From a virus, in the IMG/VR virus record IMGVR_UViG_3300032242_001271, positions 1 to 60,918 of that record: 60,918 bases of DNA. One strand, given 5' to 3'. A program made the translations under genes and the position numbers. The notes under the pieces were generated by a model. It ran no database searches. It worked only from the letters and a program-made list of their open reading frames with translations, and was not told the DNA's origin. Shown here one piece after another: positions 50,230 to 60,159 of this stretch (its first letter is position 1; each line of letters begins with the position of its first letter).

Positions 50230-51270
50230 TCATGAACGAACTTTTACGTTCCTTACATGTACATAGGCAGCGGCATTTTCGATCTGATTGGCAACTCGGA
50301 TAAACTGAGTGTATTCAATCGTGTCCTTCTTAGGCTTGAACTCACGGTAAACCGTGATGTCACGCTGGATACCGATAATACGGTTCTGCGGGAACGTAAG
50401 TTCAACGATACCATGATTGCCTGAAGCAGCAGTATAAGTGCCAGTCTCAGTCTCAGGGTAAAGAGGAACCTCAAGAAGCGGAATACCGAACGGACGAATG
50501 CCACCAACATAGTTAGCATCACCACCGCCACCAGCGCCACCCATACCCTGATTGACGATAGCATCGCCCATCGAAGTACCGGCTGAAGCGCCATTACCAG
50601 AGCCAACGAGGTTACCGTTATTAGCGGTAGCATCGAGCGAAAGGCTCCAGATGTAATCCTGCAACAGCGAGCTAGACGTTGAGAACGCAAGCTGTGAACG
50701 ACGCTGAAGGTACTTGTTCGGCAGGGCACGAAGGGCCTTGTCGAACACTGAACGGGTAAGGTTGCCACCGGCTGCGTCAACAACAACGCCACTGGTACGA
50801 GCAAGAACCTTGAAACCATTCAGAGCCTTGAGAAGAAGATCTGCCGATGAAGTATCACCGTTAATGTACAGATCCTCAAGATCGTTAGCGGTCTGGCGAG
50901 CCATAAGCGAAGCTACATGGTCCTCCAGCGAATCACCTTCGATGTTGTCCTCAAGACCTTCAGTCGTAAGTTCCCAGTCAAGACGAAGCTTAACAGTCGT
51001 CATGGAAACCTTCGAGAAGGTAGGATCGGCATTAGATGTCGTGTCCGTACCTTCAGTAGCCTTACGCATGATGCGCTGGCCGATATCAACCTTGTCGATT
51101 TCGATGGTCGGGGCGTTCATACGAACGATACGAGCCGTCTTCATCAGGACTGATTGATCAAACAGGTAATCAATAAATCGATTGGCCTGTCGGGGCTTCA
51201 GAATACCGCCTGCACCGGCGCCAATCTGAGTTGTGTTAATAACCTTTTCTAAAAGATCTCTACTGCTCAT
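50230..51270 (-). CDS. Major capsid protein (HK97 fold)
   Basis: 346 residues starting MSSRDLLEKV, the second of two ATGs, 6 nt after GGAGG. TTQIGAGAGGILKPRQANRF then SVLMKTARIVRM, RLDWELTTEGLEDNIEGDSL and VHVRNVKVRS fit the HK97-like A- and P-domains. A Gly-rich insert (GMGGAGGGG at about residue 235) marks an exposed loop. The gene is visibly more GC-rich than its neighbours (one sampled 60-base stretch is 32/60 GC), consistent with codon use tuned for heavy expression. It assembles the icosahedral shell. Confidence 0.88.
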   Translation of the reverse strand: MSSRDLLEKVINTTQIGAGAGGILKPRQANRFIDYLFDQSVLMKTARIVRMNAPTIEIDKVDIGQRIMRKATEGTDTTSNADPTFSKVSMTTVKLRLDWELTTEGLEDNIEGDSLEDHVASLMARQTANDLEDLYINGDTSSADLLLKALNGFKVLARTSGVVVDAAGGNLTRSVFDKALRALPNKYLQRRSQLAFSTSSSLLQDYIWSLSLDATANNGNLVGSGNGASAGTSMGDAIVNQGMGGAGGGGDANYVGGIRPFGIPLLEVPLYPETETGTYTAASGNHGIVELTFPQNRIIGIQRDITVYREFKPKKDTIEYTQFIRVANQIENAAAYVHVRNVKVRS

Positions 51271-51284
51271 CATTCACCTCCAAA

Positions 51285-54200
51285 TTATGAATTATAACCT
51301 AAGACCTTAGCGATCTCAGCGGGGACAAAAATTCCGCCCCAAAAGCTTTCCGAATCAGCACTCTTTTCAAGAGCCTCTTCTTCTGCAACACCATCGACCT
51401 CTATGTCAGCCGACTTCTTTTCTGCGCCTGAGTTGGCGACCTTCTCGAGATCGCTTGAAAGCTCTTCAGCGGAATCCTTAACCTCAGAAACGGACTTTTC
51501 GATGGCATCGATCTTCCCGTCAACTTCAGCAGTGATATCAGCCTTGACCTTCTCAAGCTTCTCATCAAGAAGAGCGCTCAGACCTTCGAGTACCTTCTCA
51601 AAATCCATTTCATTTTCTCCTTCATTAATGGACTTGCCCATCATTGTGGGCTGCCCCTGATTTACTACCATGTCACTTCCATTGCCGGAGGCAACTTCTT
51701 CGAGGGCATCCTCACCCTGACCTGCGCCATTATGAGGACCACCATCTCCCTCTTCAACTGTAGAGGGAGTAGCGTTGATCATAGGCTGACTGGAAACATT
51801 TGCAATTGAATTATCAGCAGGGCTTGCATTAACTGCTGCAGCAACCTGCGGATCTCTAATTACATCACCAAAATCAGCGCCACCAACATTTACAACAACA
51901 TGAGGTGCTTGCGACATATTTCCATCGGAAACAATTCGAAGCATATGATTCATATTGTTAACATCAACAACCTGTCCCTTTTCAACAGTTTCCTTACCAA
52001 AAAGGAAATTGCCGAACTTTGACAGGATAGTTTGCTTTTGAGTATCAGTTAAATCTTCATGAGACATATCATTGATATTATCATAATTATTATTTGTTTG
52101 CAAATTCTTTGCAAAATTTGCATTTGAGTTTTTCGAAACCATATCCATCCCTTCATTTGAATCGGGCATTTCGTAAATATCATCAGATACTTTTAATTGC
52201 CATGCCCACTTTTGATGCTGATCAATTCGCTCAGCAATAAAATTGCAGACACCTTGCTGATTGGCAGCATTAGCAATTTGAAAAACATTATTCAAGCTAT
52301 CGATAACAGCATCATTATCTTCAGCAAGATCAGCAGCAAGAATTTCGGGATCAACATCCATTACCGGATCATCGTCAATAGTAGCCATAGCTAAAAATTC
52401 ACTAATTCCCCTTGGAGCAGTTCCACCCATCTTAAGAATATTTTCAGCAAGAGGATCAATGCTTTCGTAAACATCAGTATAAATAGCTTCAAAAAGAGCA
52501 TGATACTGAGCAAAATCGCTACCACGGACATTCCAATGATAGCCATGAGCGTGAGTGTACATGACAGCAACATCACCAACAGCCTTACGAAGTGCATCAA
52601 TCACCTGAGCCTGAGCGTAATCAGGAGAAGGCATAATCTTAATAAGATCGCCAGCATCAAATGCAGTCTTCAAGACAGCAGGAAGAGGGCGATCAGGACC
52701 ATTAACACGCTTCCAAGCAGAACGAATCTTTGCCTTTACACTAGCAAGATCAGCAGAAGGAATCTGAACCTTATTGCCTCTAAAACCGGCAGAAGTAAGA
52801 GCAGTTGTTGCTCTAGAAACCTGAGCAACAGTTTCCTTCGTAGTAGGAGAATCCCAAAGACGAAGCTTCCAAGTAGAAGGAGTATTAGGATCTGGAACAT
52901 AAGCAAAAGCTGCAGCAGGATACTGCTCCCCACCTTCCATCTTCATAGGAGCATCCTTCTTCATCTTCTTCCTTTGCGGAGGAAGACCCTGTTGAGGCTG
53001 AAGTAGACCACCACCAGCAAGAGCGGCAGTATCAACTGCTTTGCAGTAAGAGCAATCCATTCCTTCCATCAAAGTACCAGTAGAATCGCAATGACCACAA
53101 TCTTGATTATCGGAAATAGCTCCAGCACCTTCGCAATATGGGCAAGTCATATCTTTCATGACACTGCCAGAATCACCGCAAATTTTGCACATATAATCTG
53201 ACTTATTCATATTAATATCTTTCTTATTCAAATCACCAATCTTAGAAACAGTGGACATCTTGTGTCCAACATATGTTTCAGTTGCAGCCCAACCTTTAGC
53301 ATTTTTATGCCAAACTTGAATAAGTAATGCAGGATCTTCTTTAGTTCCAGTAATATTGAAACTAGAATTAGGAACCTCAATACTCCCATTTGCTGCAATT
53401 CTAACAACCTTGCCTCTGGCTTCTCCACCAGAAGAATTCCAAGAAACAAAATCACCGCGCTGAACTGCCGACTTATAAGTTTCCGATATCATTTCATCAG
53501 GACCATCGATATTCATACCGTGAACATCTGTCCCGACACCTTTTTCCATATTTTTCATACGATTAACAATAGCATCAGCCCAAGACTTACCGGGATCTCC
53601 ACCCCACAAAGCCCAAGCAATTCTTCCAGCAGAAGGATAACCTTCACCCTGAGAAAAACCTTTACCCTGCTTATCAACCTCATGACGAGCAAAAAAACTG
53701 TGCATTCTGCGAACAGTTGAGAGACTCAACTGTCTTTTGCCCATGATATCCCTAGCTCTAGCAACACCAACTGAGGTGCCACCGCGATTAAATTCTTTTC
53801 TCCAATCAAGGCCGCGCTTTGCTTCTGCAGCCATAGCGTCAGTAGGAGTAGTGTTAATATCAGAAAGAGCCTTCTGAAAAGAATCATTCAGAGTTTCAAT
53901 AAATTTATTTATTAAAATATCATCATAATCTTCAGATTTTCCGATAATAACCATTTCATCAAAACAAGTTGGGCAGACACTATCTGCGCCAACTGAAACA
54001 TAGCCATCATCTTCACAGTAAAAAACATCTTGCATTTGATCAGCAACATACTCAAGCTGACCATTAACACTCTTGATCATAGCGAACATCCCTGCAGGAT
54101 TGCAGGGATTGTCAACAACACTAAGTTCGCCAAGTGTATATTCTTGGATTTCACGAACCTTACGTCCATGACGCTCCATAAATACATTATCAGCCTTAGA

Positions 54201-54545
54201 GACGCTTCCACCAATAGAAAAACCACGGAGCGTACCATCTAAGATCTTCTGCCAAGTAGACTCAGCACCCTTAGAAATATAAACAGAAACTTCAATACCT
54301 TGATACATCTGACCATCGTAAGAAACTGGGACAGTTTTCCAATCAACCAGTTTTCCTACAGCAATAGGGGAATGCATCTCACGAATATTTCCCACCCAAC
54401 TAGAAAAAGCCTCAACTGAGGCATCAAAATTTACAACATCATCTACAAGATCCGGGTTATCAGCAGTAGCAATACCAGTGACAACTCTTTGTTCTTTATT
54501 GATCTTTTGAAATGGGAATGTAAAATTCAGGTCTGATGAGTGCAT
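51285..54545 (-). CDS. Capsid protease-scaffold polyprotein with embedded Dps-like domain
   Basis: 1086 residues. (1) About 1-165: XkdF-like prohead protease with His58 and Ser110 in REMHSPI and RGFSIGG. (2) A small Cys cluster (CPTC). (3) About 240-335: KRGLDWRKEF...STVRRMHSFFARHE, a known phage head domain. (4) About 355-440: HVA1 TUDOR-like (GDFVSWNSSGGEARG). (5) 453-501: four CxxC pairs of DnaJ-like zinc type. (6) About 545-635: a further phage head domain (YVPDPNTPSTWKL). (7) About 645-786: a Dps/ferritin-like domain with H670, H682, E686, D697 and E701, the exact spacing of the Dps ferroxidase set. (8) C-terminal coiled-coil scaffold (MDFEKVLEGLSALLDEKLEK). Precedes the capsid gene. Confidence 0.85.
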   Translation of the reverse strand: MHSSDLNFTFPFQKINKEQRVVTGIATADNPDLVDDVVNFDASVEAFSSWVGNIREMHSPIAVGKLVDWKTVPVSYDGQMYQGIEVSVYISKGAESTWQKILDGTLRGFSIGGSVSKADNVFMERHGRKVREIQEYTLGELSVVDNPCNPAGMFAMIKSVNGQLEYVADQMQDVFYCEDDGYVSVGADSVCPTCFDEMVIIGKSEDYDDILINKFIETLNDSFQKALSDINTTPTDAMAAEAKRGLDWRKEFNRGGTSVGVARARDIMGKRQLSLSTVRRMHSFFARHEVDKQGKGFSQGEGYPSAGRIAWALWGGDPGKSWADAIVNRMKNMEKGVGTDVHGMNIDGPDEMISETYKSAVQRGDFVSWNSSGGEARGKVVRIAANGSIEVPNSSFNITGTKEDPALLIQVWHKNAKGWAATETYVGHKMSTVSKIGDLNKKDINMNKSDYMCKICGDSGSVMKDMTCPYCEGAGAISDNQDCGHCDSTGTLMEGMDCSYCKAVDTAALAGGGLLQPQQGLPPQRKKMKKDAPMKMEGGEQYPAAAFAYVPDPNTPSTWKLRLWDSPTTKETVAQVSRATTALTSAGFRGNKVQIPSADLASVKAKIRSAWKRVNGPDRPLPAVLKTAFDAGDLIKIMPSPDYAQAQVIDALRKAVGDVAVMYTHAHGYHWNVRGSDFAQYHALFEAIYTDVYESIDPLAENILKMGGTAPRGISEFLAMATIDDDPVMDVDPEILAADLAEDNDAVIDSLNNVFQIANAANQQGVCNFIAERIDQHQKWAWQLKVSDDIYEMPDSNEGMDMVSKNSNANFAKNLQTNNNYDNINDMSHEDLTDTQKQTILSKFGNFLFGKETVEKGQVVDVNNMNHMLRIVSDGNMSQAPHVVVNVGGADFGDVIRDPQVAAAVNASPADNSIANVSSQPMINATPSTVEEGDGGPHNGAGQGEDALEEVASGNGSDMVVNQGQPTMMGKSINEGENEMDFEKVLEGLSALLDEKLEKVKADITAEVDGKIDAIEKSVSEVKDSAEELSSDLEKVANSGAEKKSADIEVDGVAEEEALEKSADSESFWGGIFVPAEIAKVLGYNS

Positions 54546-54605: not shown

Positions 54606-55463
54606 TTAGATACCTACATCTTCAAGAGTAAATGTAGCTAAACGTCCATCTCCAGAAACTGGCTGACCAAAGTGGTACACATTACCAGTTCCACCGTTAC
54701 GTTTTATAGATATTTTACGAGTTACAGTAGAGGCATTAATGGTTTCATAATATACAAAACTATATGCAGTTGCTACCGTTGTTCCAGAGTTTAAAATATC
54801 AATAGCCTGTAAAACAGTGCCTCCAGAATCTCTTAAAGCTACTTGAATTACCGCGGAAGCTGTATCACCGTATACATGGCCAACTACTGTCCATTTATAT
54901 TTACGTCCACTAGTCACTGCTTGACTGTTAAATAATAAAGCTGTATCTACGAAAGTTGTTGTAGCAGCAGAAGATCCTGCATTTGAAGTAGTTTGGGCAA
55001 CAAAGCCGCGTGCATAAGTAGCCCATATCGGAGTACCTGTTCCAGCAGATTGTAAAACTTGTCCACTAGTACCCGCAGCTGTATAGGCATGTGCAGTACC
55101 AGTTCCGTAACCTACACCGCCTGAGGTTGCAGTGGCTGTAGAGTTAGTTCCACCATTGGCGATAGGTAAAGGAGTAGTAAGCCAAGTGGTGTCGTAGTTA
55201 GTTCCGCTATTTTTTACAAGAAACTGTCCTGTTGTTCCACCAGTCACAACTCCAGCACCCTGCGGACCAGTTGGGCCTTGAGGACCTTGAGAGCCCTGCG
55301 AGCCAGTTGATCCCTGAGTTCCTTGTGGACCAGTTAGGCCTTGAGGGCCTTGTGGTCCTTGAGATCCTTGAGCGCCAGTCGCTCCCTGAGGACCGGAGTT
55401 CCCCTGAGCACCAATCGCAACCTCTGTCCAAACTCCACCAACATATTGCTTTACAACTGTCAT
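54606..55463 (-). CDS. Collagen-like fibre protein (short)
   Basis: 285 residues. N-terminal [19 protein letters not shown], a Gly-X-Y repeat from about 20 to 70 ([10 protein letters not shown] type), a [20 protein letters not shown] link common in phage fibre proteins, and a beta C-terminus (TFTLEDVGI). Trimeric fibre with a collagen stalk. It follows the long collagen-like gene. Confidence 0.8.
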
Positions 55464-55485: not shown

Positions 55486-57531
55486 TCATGCGCTCAAATC
55501 TCCAACTGCAACCCAAGTATCAGTGCCACGCTTAATAAGCGTAACTGCAGACCACTGCGCCCTAGTTTTTAACCCCGGAGTTCCATTTATAGTTACGCCT
55601 GATATCGGGGTGATAGTTACTTGACCAGCACCAGATTGCAATATATTAATCTGTGTTCCTATGACATAAGCAACGCTACTATTCAATGGGACATTTAAAG
55701 TGAATGATGTTGCATAATTACATTCAATTAATTTTTGTTCATCACTAAGGATAAGTGTGTAGCTTGATCCCGTTTGAGCATTAGTAGATAATCTTCCCGG
55801 AGCGAAAAGAGTTCCTGTAGAACTAGTATCTGCCCATAGAACTGTTGTATCTACGGGAGCTGTCGCTGAGGTGATAATACCTTGAGCACCAGTTGGACCT
55901 TGAGGCCCTTGAGGACCCTGTGGTCCTTGAGGTCCTTGATAACCTTGAGGGCCTTGGGGACCTTGAGGTCCTTGATTACCTTGTGGACCCTGAGGGCCTT
56001 GCGGACCTTGACTGCCTTGAACGCCTTGAGGGCCTTGAGGGCCAAGGTCACCTGATCTAGCAGCACCAATAAGAACTGTCTCTCCGCTACTTGGATAAGA
56101 ACCGGAAAGAGCGACTACATCAAAAGCAGTCCAAGTAGAACTTGTAGAAGATCCAGTGACTTGAAAGGTACAATAAGTAGATGAAGATGAATCTTGACCT
56201 ATCATTGTTATAATATTTTTTATAAAATTAGTAGAGTCATCCCAAGTAGCCATATAATCTGTAATATCATTTGAATTATTGGCAGTATGACTAATATAAA
56301 ATTTAGTTATAGATGAAAATAAATTAACGCCACTGGATTTATTGAATCTTAAATATCCAGCTCCGGGATCAGCATTGGAAGTAGAAGTACTGAAATAAAA
56401 AGGAAATCCTGTACTCTTTGCTGCACCCTGAGCACCCTGAGCGCCTTGAGGACCTTGTGGGCCTTGATATCCCTGAGCACCTTGCAGACCTTGAGGTCCT
56501 TGATAGCCTTGCGGACCTTGTGGGCCTTGAATTGTAGACTGCGCACCTTGTGGACCTTGAGCACCCTGTGGGCCTTGAGGTCCTTGCGTACCTTGAGTAC
56601 CAGTGTCTCCAATAACAGCAAAATCCCAGCCAGAATAAGAACCAGATCCAGAAGTTTGATCTACAGTTATCTGAGCACTATAATTTGGATATCCAGAAGA
56701 AGAGAAGTTAGTCAATAACCCCTTCATCCAAATAGATGAAGTATTGGATAGTATCACACGCTGTCCCGCAACATAATTAAGAGGGCCAGTAGAAGATGTC
56801 ACTGTAACAGTTTTAGCTCCAGTAGAAATAGTTAAAGAACCAGAGACTGATCCACCATAACCAGACCCAGTAGATCCTTGAGGACCTTGTACTCCTTGAG
56901 GACCTTGACTGCCTTGGACACCTTGAGGGCCTTGACTTCCTTGAACGCCTTGAGGACCTTGCGGGCCTTGACTGCCTTGTGGGCCAGTCGGTCCTTGAGT
57001 TCCTTGAGGTCCTTGAATAGTAGACTGAGCACCTTGCGGACCTTGTGGTCCTTGATAGCCTTGCGGACCTTGAGGGCCTTGATTGCCCTGTGAGCCTTGA
57101 GCACCCTGCGGACCTTGTGGGCCTTGAGAACCTTGCGGGCCTTGAACAGAGGATTGAGCGCCCTGAGGACCTTGAGGGCCTTGAGGGCCTTGAGGGCCCT
57201 GAGAACCTTGAACACCGCTGGGAACAGTAAAGTTGAAAATAGCAGCAGTCGAAGTTCCGCTATTTGTCAAAACAGCAGAAGAGCCGGGAGATCCGGTAGT
57301 AGTAGTTCCAATAGTAACAGTCGCAGAGCCCAATCCAATAGGACCCTGAGGACCTTGAGGACCAATAATACCAGTAGAAGCCTCTGCAGCAATAGCTGAA
57401 GGACTAACAGTAATTCCCTGTAAGCCACGATTAACAGTAACATTAGGGCCAGCAGCAGTAGGAGTAACACTAACTGTAGTATCAATACCACTTACAGTGA
57501 TTTCGTTAGTGGTTTGATTAATTTCAGTCAT
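55486..57531 (-). CDS. Collagen-like fibre protein (long)
   Basis: 681 residues. Several long Gly-Pro-Gln runs (about 60-220, 310-380, 500-555) alternate with beta segments ([33 protein letters not shown]-like). The last about 70 residues ([20 protein letters not shown] ... [13 protein letters not shown] ... VAVGDLSA) match the C-terminal domain of the truncated collagen-like protein at 60152-60918. Collagen stalks form trimers; the cap probably starts folding or binds a receptor. The start overlaps the upstream stop by one base (TAATG). Confidence 0.82.
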
Positions 57532-58033: not shown

Positions 58034-58585
58034 CTAAAATCTCTTCAAGTTTGGATCAATCGTAGATGCAGCAATGATTGGATCAATCGGCCACCCCGAC
58101 GACGCGAGATCAGCAAAGACCGTCTCAGGGGTGAAAACCAGATTATCAAAAGAGACTGTTGTTATCTCAATATTTGGGTCACTAGCAGCAAGGGCCAAGC
58201 CGACTTCATATTCGGAGATTTGTTTCTCTGGGAATGGAGTTCCAAATGACTTTTCCCACGAAAGAATCATTTCTTGAGTGTTTCTTCTGGTGACAATCAT
58301 TTTGCATGGTGGCATTGATTCTGTTGTTAGGAGATTTGCAACAGTCGCTTTTGTTACCCCATTTTCAGGGACAAGAGGTAACCATTCAGAGAATGGACGG
58401 AGGGGAAAGTTTGGAGGGTAATAGCCATTGGGGTTGGGATCATGTGTTTCGTCAACCTCTTTGCTTCTGATTATTTGCTCTGCCTCAAGGCTGTAATAGC
58501 CCACAAGGGTGTCTGATGCAGTTAAGCAGGCGTGCATGAGGCTGCTTGTTCCTGTTCGATACATTCCAGCTATTATGTAAATCAT
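58034..58585 (-). CDS. Sulfotransferase-like protein
   Basis: 183 residues. YIIAGMYRTGTSSLMHA at the start is a P-loop resembling the 5'-phosphosulfate loop of PAPS sulfotransferases (G-x-x-R-x-G-T-S), and KMIVTRRNTQEMILSWEKSF resembles the 3'-phosphate loop. It is shorter than typical sulfotransferases, so it may be minimal or reduced. It overlaps the adhesin stop by 4 nt. In tail loci it could sulfate phage fibre or host surface sugars. Base composition is richer in GC than surrounding genes. Confidence 0.6.
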   Translation of the reverse strand: MIYIIAGMYRTGTSSLMHACLTASDTLVGYYSLEAEQIIRSKEVDETHDPNPNGYYPPNFPLRPFSEWLPLVPENGVTKATVANLLTTESMPPCKMIVTRRNTQEMILSWEKSFGTPFPEKQISEYEVGLALAASDPNIEITTVSFDNLVFTPETVFADLASSGWPIDPIIAASTIDPNLKRF

Positions 58586-60159
58586 TTAATAATCACCGAA
58601 GTAGCCCATCCTGTTCCAAAGTTAGATCCAGTCGTTGTTCTGGTTCCCGTAGCATTTTGGTTTGCTAGAGATATGTAGCCGGAGCGATGACGCTCATTGC
58701 TAAATGATGTAGCAAAGTTTGGATCAAAGAAATCGGCGTGCAACTCTGGATAGGGCGTACCAGAAGCAGCGGTGTAGAAACCACCGATCCACAAACTTCC
58801 ATTGCCCGTTGGGGTTATTGTTGGCACGTTTATGGTACTTGCAGCAGTTGCTGTTGCTGTTTGAATACTGTCGTAAGCCGTGGCATTTGCGACAGAGTAA
58901 ATGATTGCACTTGTATAAGTCGTGGTTGTAAATGAGAAGGTATAAGTTGACCCTTCTGATGCGGCGGTTCTTGTGTAGACATGATATTTCCTATTGCCAT
59001 TACTTAGTGAAGCCCTATTAGTCCATCCGCTTGGCGGAGTAATAGTGCCGGTTCCGTTGGTTGCAAAGAACATGACCATGATGTCACCATCTACAGTTCC
59101 TGAAGGTTTATTGATTGTTATACTGGTTCCACCAGTAACGCGAGAATCTGCATATGATCTGACATAAGCGCCGGGAGAAACATCAACCGCAGTTGAAGCA
59201 GTTCCATTACCAGCGCCATTGACTCCTCGTAACTGCAAAGAGTAAACCTGTCGATTAGTTAGTCCAGTAATCCCAAAGCGAGCGTCAAGCCAACTGTAGC
59301 CATAACTTGAATACATAGCAGGCGTAATAGATGTCCATGCTCCACTGTCAAGTTTGTATTGATACTCCACCAAATCACCGCCATTAGTTGATCCGGCTGT
59401 AAATGATGGCAAAACAATACCTGATGTGAAATGAGCGTGCTTGACGGATGTGGGCGCATCAGGAACGGTAGCGACAGTGTTGTTAATTGCCATTGCAGCA
59501 ACCAATCCCGATTCAGCAGAACTCAAGGTTCCTGTTTTCGTGTAACTGGCTGCACCGCTAGCCACTTGGAAACCTGCATAGACATTTCGAGCGCCCGTTT
59601 CTCGGTGCATTTCTGTCATCCCGCTTGGAGCCGTAAGCGTGGTTGTGGCGCTATTTCCATCCGACATGAAATAAAGGATCGCATCAGCATTACCTGCGGC
59701 GGCAACAGCAGTTGATGTTGCAGATGTTGTTAAAACGAAAACCGCTGTAGAGGAAGCGTCGTGTTTGTAGGCACTTCTCAATACAAAAACACCAGCGGTC
59801 CAAGAATCAGCGTAAGAAAGACCCGATGGGGAGGTATAAGTGGATTCCGATGCCGAGGCCACTCTGGTACACAGGCGCATGATGGTAGTGGTTGATCCTT
59901 CGCCTATGGCACTGCCGTTAACTTGCTGCCGAACCCATCCATCAGGTACAGCCGTGGGATAGTTGCCCGACTTGTAATCAATCGTGTAACGCTCAAATAG
60001 AACTAAATAATCTCCCGCCAAAATGGGATTAGAAAAAGATGCCTGAGTAATACTCCAAGGTGAATCCGAAGTACCCGTAGTAACTGACTTACTTGCAAAA
60101 GTAATACCAGAAGCAACTTCAAGGAAACCCGAAGCCACGATGCCTAAAATGCTAGGCAC
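58582..60159 (-). CDS. Tail adhesin with FN3 domain
   Basis: 525 residues. Beta-rich throughout. About 233-335 is a fibronectin type III domain ([20 protein letters not shown] ... [14 protein letters not shown]). The N- and C-terminal thirds share a repeated layout ([20 protein letters not shown] and [18 protein letters not shown]), possibly related beta-sandwich domains. It overlaps the collagen-like gene upstream by 8 nt, so fibre and adhesin are co-expressed. The gene is GC-richer than the tail genes. Probable receptor-binding or carbohydrate-binding role. Confidence 0.75.

Follow-up and report, generated by a model that had tools for sequence, protein, structure and literature searches.

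A Dps-type ferritin domain with conserved ferroxidase ligands is inserted between the head protease and the scaffold tail of a single viral polyprotein, as seen in sequence comparison and in the predicted fold, and comparison of its relatives shows that members of the same viral Dps clade have become fused, on separate occasions, to head proteases of several kinds, portal/protease polyproteins and minor head proteins. Targeting of this Dps to the phage head is well supported, and we regard the chances as evenly balanced that the domain is cargo taken into the prohead by the protease and the scaffold, where it would oxidize or store iron beside the DNA.

The polyprotein is encoded in the 60,918-nucleotide stretch analyzed here (the window), positions 1 to 60,918 of the IMG/VR record IMGVR_UViG_3300032242_001271. 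The domains of the polyprotein and the adjacent capsid gene are as follows:

51285-54545, minus strand: head polyprotein, an open reading frame of 1086 amino acids in the order protease, accessory domains, Dps, linker and scaffold tail; the same frame is present in contigs L002, L003 and L006
53910-54536, minus strand: head maturation protease, residues 4-212 (PHROG 9427, E=1.2e-63)
within 53910-54536, minus strand: putative catalytic His58 (EMHSPIAVGK), Ser110 (GFSIGG) and Glu140 (GELSVVD), proposed from conservation
53541-53867, minus strand: PHROG 2859 accessory domain, residues 227-335 (E=1.4e-29), which is also present in Dps-S78 fusions
53316-53456, minus strand: Hva1_TUDOR domain, residues 364-410 (PF11160, E=7.7e-7), found in Dps-S78 fusions as well
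53034-53189, minus strand: zinc-ribbon-like segment with four CxxC motifs, about residues 453-504 (sequence and alignment)
52659-52961, minus strand: PHROG 19463 accessory domain, residues 529-629 (E=8.4e-27)
52188-52613, minus strand: Dps domain, residues 645-786 (PF00210, AlphaFold and Foldseek)
51285-51620, minus strand: scaffold-like coiled-coil tail, residues 976-1086, ending in the region of a conserved WGG motif (alignment with the Coruscant C-terminus)
50230-51273, minus strand: major capsid protein, the next gene, directly downstream of the polyprotein (PHROG 1623, E=9e-85; PF05065, E=4e-5)

Both ends of the polyprotein have counterparts in the 408-residue capsid maturation protease of Coruscant, a Streptomyces phage of the Stanwilliamsviridae, which is likewise encoded directly before the capsid gene and combines a homologous N-terminal protease with a C-terminal coiled coil. 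Residues 6-241 of the window protein are 40% identical to the Coruscant protease, whereas the tail (residues 922-1074) aligns weakly with its C-terminus, including the closing WGG motif (E of 0.015 in a single comparison). Because both ends match, Dps falls within an insert of about 700 residues between protease and scaffold that the Coruscant protein lacks, and, from sequence alone, the best reading of the window protein is that of a protease-scaffold with a large insert containing Dps. The putative catalytic His58, Ser110 and Glu140 are kept in the alignment of the window group, Coruscant and the divergent contig L286, which is consistent with a catalytic role; against the Pfam S78 family, the protease region scores under the cut-off. 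The linker between Dps and the tail is variable. A helix appears at residues 982-1040 in the low-confidence AlphaFold model of the full-length chain, which is unusable as a whole (pLDDT 31). An assembly chimera was ruled out by the presence of the same fused frame in the independent contigs L002, L003/L004/L005 and L006.

The inserted domain is a true Dps domain. It matches the Pfam Ferritin family (PF00210) over residues 649-785 (E=3.8e-17, 63 bits against a cut-off of 24.5) and PHROG 3636, a phage Dps-type DNA-binding protein, over residues 647-785 (E=3.6e-26), and the sequence matches in the PDB are headed by Dps proteins (8ff9 at E=2.8e-17, followed by 3iq1 and 2fjc). The AlphaFold model of the domain monomer, built from an alignment of 52 viral domains, has a pLDDT of 95.1 and the Dps order of helices A-D with a short BC helix, and the best solved structures in Foldseek are Dps proteins of Vibrio, Pseudomonas, Treponema and others (TM 0.86-0.90). 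The HMM matches, the fold and the family of relatives together rule out a chance motif. An earlier note, made from the sequence alone, had placed a Dps domain at about residues 645-786, flanked by a capsid protease and a scaffold tail upstream of the capsid gene, and had proposed structure prediction as the check; the domain, its four-helix bundle and both flanks were borne out, with the tail resting on the weak Coruscant alignment, although the nucleotide span given there, 52300-52620, covers most of the domain rather than its full extent.

The five ferroxidase positions, compared between the viral domains and a cellular set of 77 bacterial and archaeal Dps, are:

52536-52538, minus strand: H670, ligand, invariant in 139/139 viral and 77/77 cellular sequences
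52500-52502, minus strand: H682, ligand, invariant in 139/139 viral and 77/77 cellular sequences
52488-52490, minus strand: E686, fifth position, acidic in 41/139 viral sequences; Glu in 72/77 cellular ones
52455-52457, minus strand: D697, ligand, invariant in 139/139 viral and 77/77 cellular sequences
52443-52445, minus strand: E701, ligand, invariant in 139/139 viral and 77/77 cellular sequences

All five residues are present with the relative spacing of 0, 12, 16, 27 and 31 noted earlier. The invariance of H682 and D697 is no product of the search because neither residue was part of any search pattern. The description of the ferroxidase set as intact holds for four ligands across the viral clade but not for the position of E686; the Glu found there in the window, which had been set against the Asp of Listeria Dps, is no oddity, being the usual residue in cells. 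With the fifth position relaxed in the majority of relatives, some members of the viral clade may have altered or lost catalysis. Furthermore, K705 and several residues of helix D (Q764, R773, D775 and W780) are near-invariant in the viral clade and not in cells, which suggests a clade-specific interface or partner.

Thus, the viral domain shares the BC-helix fold and the canonical H/H/D/E spacing with cellular Dps, such as Listeria Dps, Bacillus Dlp, Vibrio 3iq1 and Pseudomonas 8ff9, but differs from them in its location within a head polyprotein, its separate clade, its own near-invariant residues, the relaxed E686 position in relatives, and the lack of a DNA-binding tail. A basic tail or surface that binds DNA is found only in some members of the Dps family and is not required for membership. 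With a net charge of -14 and no Lys-rich tail, the Dps domain of the window is unlikely to coat DNA directly, and most of the stand-alone relatives are bare cores of about 145 amino acids, so that DNA protection through DNA binding is not supported. A Lys-rich basic segment just before Dps is present in L286, L305 and L007/L064.

The virus-specific Dps clade extends over hundreds of IMG/VR contigs, with at least 550-594 confirmed relatives in each of three family-alignment scans. We retained 138 distinct viral-type domains, including three from MAG contigs. Among the best 80 matches in bacterial and archaeal genomes, only these three MAG contigs (L104-L106) belong to the viral clade; the bit scores are about 181 or more for the viral contigs scored, 159 or more for the three MAG contigs and 114 or less for the rest of the genome set. 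In the phylogenetic tree, viral and cellular Dps are split with 100/100 support, and recent capture of a host gene is not supported. Fusions account for 65 of the 138 domains, a count of best matches to a few queries rather than a population frequency, with the partners classified by blast markers:

Dps-S78 protease: 35, with Dps on the N-terminal side and the protease at the C-terminus
Window-type protease-scaffold: 5 and the window, in the order protease, Dps, scaffold tail
XkdF-like S78_2 protease, then Dps: 1 (L007/L064)
Portal/protease polyprotein (PHROG 859/18402), then Dps: 3 (L089, L222 and L244)
Further protease-Dps-coiled coil: 1 (L241)
Dps-Zeta-toxin minor head protein: 1 (L082)
Dps-DUF5824: 8, most directly downstream of the portal gene

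The remaining fusions fall into none of these partner classes. Two of the 35 Dps-S78 proteins are truncated at contig ends and were classified from the N-terminal part. The Dps-S78 fusions, which have no scaffold tail, typically lie between the portal gene (directly upstream in 33/35) and the capsid gene (directly downstream in 32/35); the similarity of ordinary HK97-type S78 prohead proteases to these proteins is confined to the protease part. The L286 protein has the layout protease-DUF6321-Dps-scaffold followed by the capsid gene, with an accessory domain different from those of the window, so that two divergent groups share one layout, and in both, 14-19 bp separate the polyprotein from the capsid gene. 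The L305 reading frame excludes the protease match, which lies upstream of it, yet still joins Dps to a scaffold tail and stops 20 bp short of the capsid gene. The Dps-DUF5824 proteins of L013, L085, L218, L226, L233, L248 and L253 adjoin portal genes on the downstream side. The domains PHROG 2859, Hva1_TUDOR, PHROG 19463 and DUF6321 recur in varied order around Dps and head proteases (the window, L055, L033, L222, L305 and L286), as if, judging from these arrangements, head polyproteins were exchanging accessory cargo domains from a shared pool.

A single clade for all protease and portal fusions was rejected (p-AU 0.005), which rules out one fusion event behind all of them, whereas a single clade for the four window-type rows was not (AU test, p=0.54). 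Separate joining events are also required by the order of the parts because Dps precedes S78 but follows PHROG 9427, S78_2 and the portal/protease. We give no exact number of events since the deep forks of this short alignment are poorly resolved.

The stand-alone members of the clade are split in their genomic context. In 37 of 73, a recognized head gene lies within 5 kb; many of these adjoin portal or protease genes, several at a distance of 0-175 bp. The other 36, chiefly L091-L102, have no recognized head gene within this distance, and in L091-L102, Dps lies among genes of the opposite strand. Together with a short DUF6321-type gene of about 99 amino acids, it resembles a small inserted cassette oriented against the surrounding strand. 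Because about half of the stand-alone members lack a nearby head gene, the viral Dps clade may have a function inside the infected cell as well.

Proteases and scaffolds assemble inside the prohead, so the fusion would deliver Dps to that compartment. Once the polyprotein had carried it in, the head protease might trim the linkers, although no cleavage sites were identified, and neighboring Dps copies could assemble into dimers or 12-subunit cages that would be retained in the head. There, the ferroxidase site would oxidize and sequester Fe(II) with peroxide and thereby lower Fenton damage to the packaged DNA; direct coating of DNA is no part of this proposal. Embedding in a chain of 1086 residues could, on the other hand, block the formation of cages. 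Given the many uncultured viruses in which relatives of this Dps are fused to head proteins, heads loaded with iron-handling cages may occur in some phages. We put forward only tentatively, as the less probable outcome, the broader idea that widespread uncultured phages build iron-mineralizing Dps cages into DNA-filled HK97-fold heads by means of the maturation protease and the scaffold, yielding iron-containing or oxidant-proof virions, the particle-borne equivalent of encapsulin-ferritin compartments. If this is true, an iron enzyme would accompany the DNA in some phage particles, head proteases and scaffolds would be cargo loaders, and the views of virion stability in oxidizing waters and of virus-borne iron would change.

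This arrangement would be a natural parallel to the encapsulins, in which an HK97-fold shell surrounds an iron enzyme of the ferritin superfamily that is sometimes fused to the shell gene. Encapsulins with ferritin-like cargo are the nearest analogy. There are differences: the present case involves a tailed phage with a DNA-filled head, the cargo would be Dps and not an encapsulated ferritin, and the carrier would be a protease/scaffold instead of a targeting peptide. An encapsulin shell is encoded without phage tail and replication genes, whereas the window genome encodes a tape measure, tail proteins, DNA polymerase, helicase and a candidate terminase. No portal gene was found in the window, where the region 58582-60159 has no match to PHROGs or to the Coruscant portal.

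Other roles have to be weighed against that of head-targeted cargo. The Dps dimer or 12-subunit assembly might be a hub that brings scaffold-protease chains together and nucleates the prohead or sets its size, with the metal only stabilizing the interface. In favor of a hub, the metal site of Dps is situated at the interface of the dimer, the viral clade has a relaxed fifth ligand, and the window family, L286 and L241 have Dps flanked by protease and scaffold tail, with Dps next to the tail in L305. Nevertheless, four invariant ligands are more than a structural role requires, the Dps-S78 fusions have no scaffold tail, and stand-alone Dps genes adjoin portal or protease genes, so we consider such an assembly core rather unlikely. 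Ejection of a packaged Dps together with the DNA, to act at the start of infection, appears highly improbable, although some phages do eject head-targeted proteins and proteolysis could release a 16-kDa subunit: an assembled Dps cage of about 9 nm is too large for the portal, and no neighborhood of ejection proteins was identified. The least credible alternative is a passenger domain without function. The accessory domains around Dps do come and go, and L006 keeps Dps but has lost the zinc-ribbon-like segment from the alignment; however, Dps itself is under purifying selection (dN/dS of 0.07 against both L002 and L003, the lowest among the scorable domains of the polyprotein, and 0.19 against L006), and its four ligands are invariant in all 139 sequences.

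Guarding of the infected cell from reactive oxygen, with fusion to an abundant late protein being only a route of expression, is about as doubtful as the assembly core. Published work assigns such an infection-time role to ferritin and Dps genes of phages (PMC6802176, PMC8008677), and it fits the many stand-alone members, in particular, the 36 without a recognized head gene nearby. It accounts poorly for repeated fusion specifically to proteins of the prohead interior, for the late expression expected of these, and for the rejection of one common origin for protease and portal fusions.

Stand-alone Dps/ferritin genes have been described in Gratiaviridae and other gut phages (PMC8008677) and in Lactobacillus myophages (PMC6669764), and those of freshwater phages were proposed to provide defense against reactive oxygen species (PMC6802176). 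The SU10 protein CDS67 was found by mass spectrometry in a preparation that was PEG-precipitated, not gradient-purified (PMC4281155). These genes are likewise phage-encoded; their descriptions explain them as host stress or infection-time genes and mention no fusion to head proteins. In the open-access literature, we found stand-alone phage Dps only and no paper on a fusion of Dps with a head protein. The earlier note, made without searches, knew of no described phage system of this type; this is valid for the fusion in that literature, whereas stand-alone phage Dps and ferritins are published in the four papers cited above, and UniProt already holds fusions. Matches to three Dps queries in deposited phage genomes are only about 23-35% identical, and no Dps-protease fusion is among those listed. 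In UniProt and a library of viral protein structures, entries from uncultured phages named only "Prohead protease" contain this Dps fold; the annotations "Prohead protease" and "Dps" each conceal half of these fusion proteins. A large, apparently unremarked Dps clade is now open to study.

Downstream of the capsid gene, the relatives L002 (8435-9742) and L003 (9235-10527) carry an apparent DNA cytosine methyltransferase gene (FIDLFAGIGGFHAAL start), unlike the window, which has none there. Directly upstream of the polyprotein, the window encodes two proteins rich in collagen-like GPQGPQ repeats (54606-55463 and 55486-57531), and repeats of this type are likewise found upstream of the polyprotein in L002 and L006. 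The window gene at 58034-58585 has a weak sulfotransferase-like match (PF17784, E=0.003, under the cut-off), and L003 and L006 have a gene of similar size, starting with GGLNRTGTTAL, on the upstream side of the polyprotein.
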